This document shows, one piece after another, positions 45,468-49,232 of a DNA stretch of 64,000 nt; position 1 is the stretch's first letter, and the number at the start of each line of letters is the position of its first letter. The notes under the pieces were generated by a model. It was not told the DNA's origin. It ran no database searches and saw only the letters and a program-made list of their open reading frames with translations. The stretch is from Farysia itapuensis (taxonomy: Eukaryota > Basidiomycota > Ustilaginomycetes > Ustilaginales > Ustilaginaceae): the NCBI GenBank assembly GCA_023212645.1, contig JALBYC010000042.1, forward strand, positions 1 through 64,000. The letters are read 5' to 3'. Made by a program: the position numbers and the translations under genes.

Positions 45468-48400
45468 CTACTGGTGCAGAGCTAGTCGGACGATGCGTAC
45501 TGTTCCATCCTGCGAGGCGCATGCGAGCAGTGCATCGTCGCCGCCCTGGAGTACGGGCGGGCGAAATTGGAGCTGATTGATCTGCTCACTTGCCAACTCG
45601 GCGAGATGGGCGACCTGAATCCAGCCTTTGTCCGAAAGACCGCGGTACACGAGCACCGTCCCGTTCTCCTGTCCAATGGCCAACAGCTGACCCACACCAA
45701 AGGCGACCGCAGTGGCAGCACTGTCCGGAAGGGCAATGGTCTGCACCACTTCGAAAGGCTTGTCCTGTGGCGTCGAGGCGTCTTTGTGCAGACGGAAGAT
45801 TTTGACGCTCTTGTCACGCGATGCAGTGGCAAAAGTGTACATGTGAGCGGCATCTTTGGACCAGTCTGCATCCCAAATGATGCGGGAATGGGAACGCTCC
45901 CCCGTGAAGGGCAGGAATTCATCGTCGTCGTCGTCGTCATTGTGGTGGTGCTGGTAGATGCGCCAGGAGCGGTCGCGCGAGCAGGAGAGGAGAAAGCGCG
46001 AGTCGAGCGACCATTGGATGCGTGTGATGCTGAGCGTGTGACCTGTTAGTTGGGCACACTCCTTCCAGTTGCGCTGGCGGTCGTGCAGTCGTACGACGGC
46101 GTGGTCTGCGTTGTTTGCACGACAGCAGGAGGCGACGAACCGACCGGCTGGGGAAGCCGCACTGCCTGGGTTGGCGCTTACCCAGAGCATCTCATACCCG
46201 TGGCCGTACAGCTTTTCCAGTTCGGGCCAGAGTGTTTCCACCGCCAGCTGTTCTTCGCTCGGTGGAGCGTGTAGGACGGCTGCGAGTGACTCGCGTGCAC
46301 TCCCAATCGGCTGTCCACTGGCACTCGCCTCGGTCGGTGGCGCACTGCCTTCAAATACAGCCCGGTTGGATAGCCCCAGAGGTGGGACGCTGGCGCCTAC
46401 GGGTCGGGATTCGAGCGAGGCGGGCTGCCTCTTCGTCGTCGTCGCAGGGTTGGCGAGCGTGAGGTTGCGCGATGTGCGCCCGCGCGTCACGCCGGCAAGC
46501 GCGTGCGTTCGACGCGGTCCACAGCGTGAAAGCCACTGACGAATGGCAGTACTTCCAATCTTGCCATCCGCCAGCGCCTTTGCATCCCCGCGCAGATTCG
46601 TCTCCCCCTCACTGCCCACAACGCCAATCACCCAGTCGTGCAGCGCGCCGAGATTGTTCTCCTTGCGTTTGTTGGCGATGAATTCGGCGCCGGATAGCGT
46701 CTCGTCCGTCACGACGAGCGCTTGCAAGTCAGCCTCGGTCGCAGCTGGACCAGCTACATCCTCCAGTTTCACCACATCTCGCTCAAGCGCTGAACCAAAG
46801 GGCATGCGGAATAGCCCGACAAAAGCGTCGACAGTGGCGATTCGCTCGGCGATGGGTTCGAGCAGGTGGGCGTTGGATTTCTTGGTAAGCATCGCATCGT
46901 CCGTCACGCCAACGATGAGTTTCCGCTCGGCAAGAATGGTGGCCATAGACAAGAGGATTTTGTGACCAACGTGCAGGTGGTCAAACGTCCCACCCAGTGC
47001 AGCGACGGGGTACGTCACCAGTCCCTTCGCATCGTCGGAGCCGACGATCTCATTGTCTTTGTCAAAAGTCGTGCGTGACGAGAGGGTTTGGAGCGGCGTG
47101 AGTTTGCGCAATAGCGCGAGCTGTTCTTGCGCCACGGTCTCGTCGACCAGCACGGTAGGCGTTTGCGCGAGTAAGGTGTTGAGGGTCGACTCGATTTGCG
47201 AAGTAGGGCAGAGGAGCACATTTATGTCGGCCAGCATAAAGTCTTTACTGATGGCGACGCTCCAAGCTCGGGCGTACATCCACTTGAGATACAGCTCGAT
47301 CTGCTTGAAGCTTGCGCCTCGCTGGCTGATGGGAGCTTCGAACAGCGATGAGCGGACAATGACGGTGAGAGTGCTCTGCTGCGAGGTGAAGTGGGAGGTC
47401 ATTGCCTGGCGGACCAAGTCTCCGTGTCGTTGAGCGCTGTGTAGCAGCCCAACATTCGGATCCACCTCGACGTAGAGCACTGTCTGGCTCGACGCTGTGC
47501 TGGCCATCAGACCGTTGCGAGACTCCTCCTCGGTGCCCAGGTTTGCAAAGAAAAGGCCGTCGTCGCCTGCAGTGCCGACAAACCCGCGCGGGGCGCTGAA
47601 TACACGCAGCACTTTTTCGTCGGCGGCCGAGACAAAGTTGAGTCGGTCGAGCCAGGAGACTGCGTGAAGGTCGTAGCCGTGCGATTGCGGTCTAGCCACC
47701 TCGGTCCATGGTGTCTGCTCCGGGGTGTTGCCAGGCTGTGCGTGGAGCCGAGTAGTTTGGTCGTCAGAGCAGGTGAGGAGGTACTGCCCGCATGGTTCCC
47801 AAGCGATAGATCGTGCTGGGCCAAAGTGACCTCGGACGGCACTGGCAACATGCCACTGCTGATGGGCGGTGGAGGAGGGGGGCAGTGTCCAGATGTGAGC
47901 GGAACCGCCCCATCCGTGCGCCACCACGGCTGACGCTGGACCCTCACCACCACTCGGTGCAGCAGGCATCCAAAGTGCGCCGAAGAACCCCAGATTGCTA
48001 GCACCCCCGACTTCGCCAAAGCGCTGCGAAGGCATCCAGATGCTCGACGCAACATGGTGCGCCGTCGGCCCACTCGTCATCCTCGCCCCGCCCGTTGAGA
48101 GCAAGGCGTCGTCAAACAGGGCAAACGGCGTCATTGTCTTCGTCGTCCCACTAGGCGTCCAGAGGATCAGACTGTTGTCGGCCGACGAGGAGAGTAACGC
48201 TGCTGGCTGGTGAGCGTTTGCCAGCGTGGGATGCCAGCGAACACCAGTGATCCAGTTGTCGTGCCCGATCAGCAGTGCGTCGAATGTAACTGCCCAACGC
48301 TGTATGCTGGAGTCAGGACGGGCGACGTGGAAGGGAAAGGCGCGGGTAGAGATCTCGCCATTGAGCGTCATCCTGTCCGCCTCGATCTTGGTCACCATCT

Positions 48401-49232
48401 GCTCAAACTCGTCCATGGCAGCGCCAGACTGCGGCGCAGAGACGCTACCGTCGTCGTGTGCAGCGGTGGCAATCTTCCACAGTCGGACACTGCCGTCTTG
48501 CGATCCACTGGCGAGCATGAGGGTCGATTTGTTGGACGGACCGGTATGGCAGAGATCGAGCGAGCGCACCCAGTCTTCATGTCCCTCGAGCGATAGCTTG
48601 TGCTCAAACAGTGCGTTGGACTGCGCAACGTACATATCAATCTTGCTGGTGGTGGTGGCAAGTGTCAGTAGGTATTGTGCTGGAGCATCGTCGTTGTTGT
48701 CGTCGTCGTGGCTCGGCAGCTCGAGAAGGGCAACGTCAAGGGGGAATCGACCTTTGAGGTCCATCGTCTGTGCTAGTGTCATGGTGAGCGTCTGGTCGAC
48801 CTGCCATACTTTGAGCAGTCCATCTGATGCTCCCGATACAAACAGGTTGGCTCCCTTGGACGAAGCAGTGGGACGGAGGACACCCAAGGCAGACACGGAG
48901 CCTGCATGAGCCTCGTTCACCACTGTCTTCCTTTCCCATTGCACACCGTCAACCGACGCTAGAAGCGCAATCGATCCATCGCCAGACCCGACTACAGCCA
49001 CCGTTCCGTCGACGAAGCAGGCAAACTTGAGCGCCGAGATGGGTCTGGTGAAGCCGGTCTGCACGACATCAGTGACACGAGACCCAGGCAGACCTGGATT
49101 GGTCCAAACCGCCACCGACTTGTTGGAGGCATAGAGCAGCGTCGATGTTGACGGTCCCAGATGAGTCCAGTCGGCAGTATGCGTGACCCTGTTGAAGGCA
49201 GCGGCGATGTAGACACTGTCCGCCGCTAACAT
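45468..49232 (-). CDS. ELP2: Elongator subunit Elp2 with nested phosphopantetheine adenylyltransferase (PPAT) domain
   Basis: One uninterrupted frame of 1254 residues. Residues 1-575 form the first WD40 propeller of Elp2 ([68 protein letters not shown]). Residues about 949-1254 begin with the Elp2 landmark [12 protein letters not shown], then [14 protein letters not shown] and the second propeller ([26 protein letters not shown]). Between them, about 576-946, lies a complete eukaryotic-type PPAT. It has its own Met-Ala start ([16 protein letters not shown]), an N-terminal domain, [12 protein letters not shown] (747-758, with the HxGH nucleotidyltransferase motif), [20 protein letters not shown] and [10 protein letters not shown] (892). 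PPAT makes dephospho-CoA from phosphopantetheine and ATP. Elp2 scaffolds the acetyl-CoA-using Elongator that modifies wobble uridines. No consensus splice sites flank the insert. Confidence 0.9.

Follow-up and report, generated by a model that had tools for sequence, protein, structure and literature searches.

A pantetheine-phosphate adenylyltransferase nested within the Elongator subunit Elp2 of Ustilaginomycotina

The first 64,000 nucleotides of contig JALBYC010000042.1 from Farysia itapuensis (assembly GCA_023212645.1; Ustilaginales), hereafter the window, contain a single reading frame in which the sequence of a pantetheine-phosphate adenylyltransferase (PPAT), an enzyme of coenzyme A (CoA) biosynthesis, lies inside that of Elp2, a subunit of the tRNA-modifying Elongator complex (Table 1). 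An original prediction, made from the letters of this DNA, had described one stop-free frame carrying the motifs of both families, and the minus strand between 45468 and 49232 is indeed open over 1254 codons from an ATG, with HVGH at residues 754-757 and IGSTAIR at residues 892-898 of the encoded protein.

Table 1. Features of the ELP2-PPAT reading frame, in window coordinates
Feature	Position	Strand	Remarks
ELP2-PPAT fusion reading frame	45468..49232	-	1254 codons + stop, ATG start; Elp2 and PPAT families
Elp2 part 1, residues 1-553	47574..49232	-	Propeller 1 and approximately two blades at the start of propeller 2; matched by Elp2 chains 8avg, 8ptx, 5m2n and 4xfv
Arg543	47604..47606	-	Aligned (8ptx) to human ELP2 R462
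Upstream linker, residues 554-582	47487..47573	-	Conserved among Ustilaginales; GC3 (G+C at third codon positions) 0.72
PPAT N-terminal domain, residues 583-735	47028..47486	-	Common to stand-alone basidiomycete PPATs (alignment, search)
PPAT catalytic core, residues 736-905	46518..47027	-	NF001985, PF01467; archaeal PPAT 3do8
HxGH-containing motif, residues 747-757	46962..46994	-	Alignment with stand-alone PPATs
KIGSTAIR motif, residues 891-898	46539..46562	-	K891, S894 and R898 invariant in fused and stand-alone rows
Downstream linker, residues 906-942	46407..46517	-	GC3 0.84; linker comparison, predicted helix at start
Elp2 part 2, residues 943-1254	45471..46406	-	VPPLGLSN segment and remainder of propeller 2

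The two halves and the site of insertion

The inserted segment is recognisable as a PPAT by profile, structure and alignment. Residues 744-875 match NF001985, the pantetheine-phosphate adenylyltransferase family (E = 1.9e-22), PF01467 matches over residues 746-804, and the archaeal PPAT 3do8 also matches the insert (E = 2.1e-9). Stand-alone basidiomycete PPATs have the same N-terminal domain and core but no Elp2 part; these regions align with 42% identity to the protein of Tilletia (P0132) and 32% to that of Mycena (P0146). No variation is seen at eight residues (K785, R797, E844, T845, R856, K891, S894 and R898) across all 58 fused and all 117 stand-alone PPATs. The 58 fused rows were picked by the HxGH motif, such that the conservation of this motif, which we take to be the nucleotidyltransferase signature, is not independent evidence. 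Motifs of both the GxFDxxHxGH and the (I/G)SSTxIR type, presumably the marks of archaeal and eukaryotic PPATs, are present in the window protein. In the predicted model, the N-terminal domain has a predicted local distance difference test score (pLDDT) mostly above 90; structure searches with larger models, of which the PPAT domain formed a part rather than standing alone, returned lists of matches filled by propellers.

The remainder of the chain has the predicted two-propeller fold of Elp2. The matches of solved Elp2 chains fall within residues 9-553 and 942-1250, and in the case of mouse Elp2 (8avg; E = 3.1e-95), for which the matched stretches lie within residues 12-553 and 942-1197, the match stops at mouse residue 474 and restarts at 493. 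The short linker that the original prediction had attributed to normal Elp2 is therefore found, at around 20 residues in the mouse protein against approximately 390 in the window protein. The same contrast extends across the family, as 348-443 residues separate the end of the DEKVxRxF strand from VPPLGLSN in fused proteins (53 of 58 measured), against 22-48 in unfused Elp2 (40 of 41 measured). Yeast, mouse and human Elp2 (4xfv, 5m2n, 8asw, 8avg and 8ptx) resemble the fusion in having two WD40 propellers, a VPxLGLSN segment and a fold that agrees along almost the entire chain, and differ from it in lacking an enzyme domain. Among 83 columns near-invariant in 38 unfused Elp2 proteins, 70 are also conserved in 90% or more of the 44 fused proteins, out of 58, that the alignment took in.

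The original prediction had correctly placed the PPAT within Elp2, but had set it between the two propellers, a position ruled out by single seven-bladed propeller chains that align across the insert. In a structure search, chains of CIAO1, Tup1 and G-beta spanned the insert, aligning from model residue 85-90 to 869-875; such single-propeller chains start near residue 467 of the window protein and continue past the inserted enzyme. The PPAT hence breaks into propeller 2 after approximately two of its blades. Against the whole Malassezia model, single-propeller chains begin at residues 1-6 and finish at 1184-1188, suggesting that in the predicted structure this same propeller is completed by the N-terminal strand. 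The insertion point is identical in all 23 rows compared, and the insert starts ten residues after Arg543, the equivalent of a human residue, R462, which is reported to sit where the second WD40 domain contacts the S-adenosylmethionine (SAM) domain of Elp3, in one of the strands of that WD40 domain (PMC8113450).

Both linkers align in frame across the Ustilaginales, as illustrated by GFVGTAG...ATLGSE and RKWL...GPRR, although their length and sequence differ between orders. Of their GC3 values, one falls inside the range of the domains (0.66-0.73) and the other exceeds it. An open frame alone is weak evidence for coding, because each linker would by itself stay open by chance with P of about 0.41 and 0.60, respectively; it is the conservation of the linkers between species, along with the recurrence of both motifs in other proteins, that constitutes the strong evidence for a coding fusion. 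The downstream linker opens with a predicted helix nearly continuing the C-terminal helix of the PPAT, and on its Elp2 side a low-confidence stretch of the model, at approximately residues 930-979, is probably flexible.

Occurrence among fungi and origin

Both family motifs were found in 57 database proteins in addition to the window, which rules out a local oddity or an assembly error. A search with the PPAT segment, covering proteins of approximately 690-2195 residues and scoring only the 7994 candidates that shared most words, gave 48 proteins, 41 of which also have the LGLSN motif of Elp2. Three others (P0021, P0041 and P0048) have a WD40 annotation without this motif, P0041 and P0048 combining an Elp2-like start with a chain that finishes shortly past the HxGH motif. 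The remaining four, without WD40 annotation, are one Sporobolomyces protein, one Rhizoclosmatium protein and two Agaricales proteins of about 1250 residues, P0043 (Tephrocybe) and P0046 (Termitomyces), in which the PPAT is accompanied by PF05183, presumably the RNA-dependent RNA polymerase domain; in these last two, gene models may have been merged or another fusion may have occurred. An Elp2 search (best 120 of 978 matches) added 14 proteins with both motifs among 83 new identifiers, and a PPAT search (best 120 of 461) a further two among 120. Some of the 57 are partial chains, such as P0136 and P0138, which start just before the PPAT core. Names borne by fused proteins in the database include 'Elongator complex protein 2' and 'Cytidyltransferase-like domain protein'; the sequences are already public with domain annotation, and what is new is the recognition of the fusion.

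Fused proteins come from 22 named species, of which three have incomplete names (Sporis..., Mela... and Pseu...) and are placed within the Ustilaginales by trees. The others belong to Kalmanozyma, Testicularia, Ustilago, Sporisorium graminicola, Pseudozyma hubeiensis, Violaceomyces, Parajaminaea, Tilletiaria, Exobasidium, Microstroma, Sympodiomycopsis, Ceraceosorus, Meira and Jaminaea, along with five Malassezia. The taxonomy of 15 of the 22, one Malassezia included, assigns all of them to the Ustilaginomycotina, with the Ustilaginomycetes, Exobasidiomycetes and Malasseziomycetes represented. The Elp2 of Sporobolomyces koalae, a Pucciniomycotina yeast, is unfused, and Tilletia, with stand-alone PPATs of 344-364 residues, is the only member of the Ustilaginomycotina named with an unfused Elp2 among the best 120 of 978 Elp2 matches.

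The relationship of Tilletia to the fused set was addressed with three trees, which included the window and 21 of the 22 named fused species (Sporisorium graminicola being left out), the tree of joined Elp2 and PPAT having two Tilletia species. All three group the fused set with Tilletia (100/100). In the Elp2 tree Tilletia lies outside the fused set, which is split off by a branch with support of 94/93 that is present in 95% of 200 bootstrap trees. By contrast, it is placed inside the fused set both by the PPAT tree (87/79), where the fused proteins form a single clade in 2% of bootstrap trees, and by the joined tree (97/97), where they do so in 0%. Approximately unbiased (AU) tests rejected neither placement, giving p = 0.178 (PPAT data) and 0.07 (joined data) for the fused proteins as one clade, and p = 0.134 on the Elp2 data for the opposite arrangement. 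Tilletia is no proof of fission on these trees; one fusion followed by one fission, in Tilletia, is slightly favoured because the NCBI taxonomy classes the Tilletiales in the Exobasidiomycetes. Two of the stand-alone PPATs of Tilletia horrida, P0132 and P0134, bear the name 'Elongator subunit elp2', a label apparently copied from the fusion, which is thus already misleading annotation.

Proposed function and competing explanations

Fusion of the two proteins is very likely to be bifunctional, judging by the conservation of both halves, each of which looks functional, with PPAT catalysis presumed from the residues retained. A single mRNA would be translated into a single 1254-residue chain that folds like any two-propeller Elp2, except that one connection between blades of propeller 2 is a loop holding an entire PPAT. 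The PPAT domain would serve as the cell's PPAT, converting phosphopantetheine and ATP to dephospho-CoA, while the Elp2 part would join Elp1 and Elp3 as usual, such that Elongator would carry the enzyme, probably close to the face of Elp2 turned towards Elp3. The fusion is proposed to have arisen once in the Ustilaginomycotina and to have been retained because the fungus requires each half and could not lose one without the other. We assign a probability of roughly 0.88 to this reading, in which a bifunctional protein of single origin carries the cell's PPAT on Elongator. It follows that the ELP2 locus should be essential in fused fungi, unlike in those with separate genes; excerpts of one source describe CAB1-CAB5 as essential in yeast (PMC8494682), from which the same expectation is drawn. 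In the basidiomycete Rhodosporidium toruloides, ELP2 features among the insertion mutants with measured lipid phenotypes in the accessible text of PMC5922974.

A second PPAT gene, which the original prediction had named as a finding that would speak against it, was not detected in this genome by the NF001985 profile or a Tilletia PPAT query, both of which match the fusion locus alone. Two other loci found by PF01467, C53 and C12, were rejected as replacement PPATs, as they were read by eye, without a profile run, as choline-phosphate cytidylyltransferase and nicotinamide mononucleotide adenylyltransferase. The dephospho-CoA kinase (DPCK), Elp3 and Elp1 families have one match each. The sole DPCK match (PF01121) is in its own frame on contig C1, apart from the fusion, and CoaE had no match in the fusion protein among Pfam families (best 25 of 28), so the protein is not a PPAT-DPCK fusion. 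Near the end of the DPCK frame (L007:1246-2055, minus strand), a hydrophobic stretch was seen by eye; this may be a membrane anchor, which would hold the kinase away from an Elongator-borne PPAT.

A number of observations weigh against the proposed bifunctional protein. Tilletia, in the same subphylum, has Elp2 and PPAT as separate proteins; the database entries are predicted proteins, and one with a stop in a linker would never have been listed as a fusion; the genome in which no second PPAT was found may be incomplete; and at 13 of the 83 columns invariant in Elp2 conservation is lower among the fused proteins. In addition, the window PPAT scores 80 bits on NF001985, under the curated cut-off of 104, as might be expected if the fold were kept as a structural part while another enzyme performed the chemistry. 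However, this cut-off was set for prokaryotes, and every fungal PPAT scored falls beneath it, including two stand-alone proteins (81.6 and 98 bits) and four other fusions (67.1-96 bits). With eight PPAT residues invariant and no replacement enzyme found in this genome, a dead enzyme is scarcely credible. It is similarly far-fetched that an independent PPAT gene is nested in an ELP2 intron and the frame open by accident: chance openness of the linkers is compatible with such an arrangement, but their in-frame alignment across species and their GC3 values are not readily explained by it, the window has no stop codon after the conserved C-terminal end of the PPAT, and the upstream linker has no occurrence of the splice donor GTRNGY, the sole pattern tried. 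Nor is an internal start conserved, 12 of 23 rows having no methionine in the first 65 residues. The other 11 do have one in that stretch, and the upstream linker of the window has a single in-frame methionine, from which an additional PPAT-only product may be made. Alternative products, or cleavage of the fused chain at the probably flexible stretch near residues 930-979, would free the PPAT from Elongator; this is improbable, as there is no conserved start codon in the upstream linker, no obvious shared cleavage motif in the linkers by eye, and a helix beginning directly after the C-terminal helix of the PPAT.

If the protein is bifunctional, its halves may nevertheless work without influencing one another, the fusion being kept because it is hard to split and any benefit coming from shared expression. 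This neutral arrangement seems somewhat more probable than its converse, given that the two proteins are separate in Tilletia, that the substrate of Elp3 is established not to be dephospho-CoA, that DPCK has its own frame and possible anchor, and that linkers vary between orders. On the other side stand the retention of the fusion in all the Ustilaginomycotina named in the Elp2 matches (best 120 of 978) except Tilletia, the insertion point common to the 23 compared rows and near an Elp3-facing strand, and a high predicted template modelling score (pTM), which, read without the predicted aligned error, suggests a fixed more than a floppy arrangement. Dephospho-CoA needs to pass through dephospho-CoA kinase and then an acetyl-CoA-forming step before it can be used by Elp3; since the DPCK match also lies elsewhere, direct feeding of Elp3 by the fused PPAT is unlikely. 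Alternatively, occupancy by substrate or product of a PPAT on the Elp3-facing side could alter Elongator activity, or tRNA-bound Elongator could alter CoA output. Such a regulatory device is a tentative and rather doubtful idea, yet if true it would mean that in much of this subphylum wobble-uridine modification tracks the supply of CoA. By analogy with yeast, where Cab4 is described in excerpts of PMC8494682 as part of a complex that makes CoA on a Cab3 scaffold, an Elongator-tethered PPAT might either rival a complex of that type or enlarge it.

Related fusions and flanking genes

Fused CoA enzymes are already known. Yeast Cab4, likened here by description rather than by sequence comparison, is a monofunctional PPAT, whereas in human CoA synthase (COASY) PPAT likewise forms half of a bifunctional protein, but is joined to the next CoA enzyme (both from excerpts of PMC8494682) instead of an unrelated tRNA-modification subunit. 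A precedent for fusion to an unrelated enzyme is Schizosaccharomyces pombe Hal3, which combines phosphopantothenoylcysteine decarboxylase (PPCDC) with a thymidylate synthase domain; it differs in both the CoA enzyme and the partner, and the added domain is a C-terminal extension rather than an insertion, as portrayed in the accessible part of PMC9604783. No described Elp2-PPAT fusion was found in literature on both families, or on the clade with either, mostly open-access and excluding preprints, in agreement with the original prediction, and nothing on the linker of Elp2 was found in the same literature. In three classes of one fungal subphylum, an essential pathway has one of its enzymes built into a subunit of a conserved tRNA-modifying complex, providing a natural system for asking whether Elongator senses CoA status and a possible marker of single origin, with one informative exception in Tilletia.

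The fusion is flanked by two genes. On one side it adjoins an ATG14/Vps38-like gene (PF10186; window 42246-44594, minus strand). On the other, ATE1, encoding an arginyl-tRNA-protein transferase (PF04376 and PF04377; window 49232-50710, plus strand), is divergent from ELP2-PPAT, and has an in-frame ATG near 49313, as counted from the translation, around 80 bases from that of ELP2; the two genes may have a very short promoter in common.
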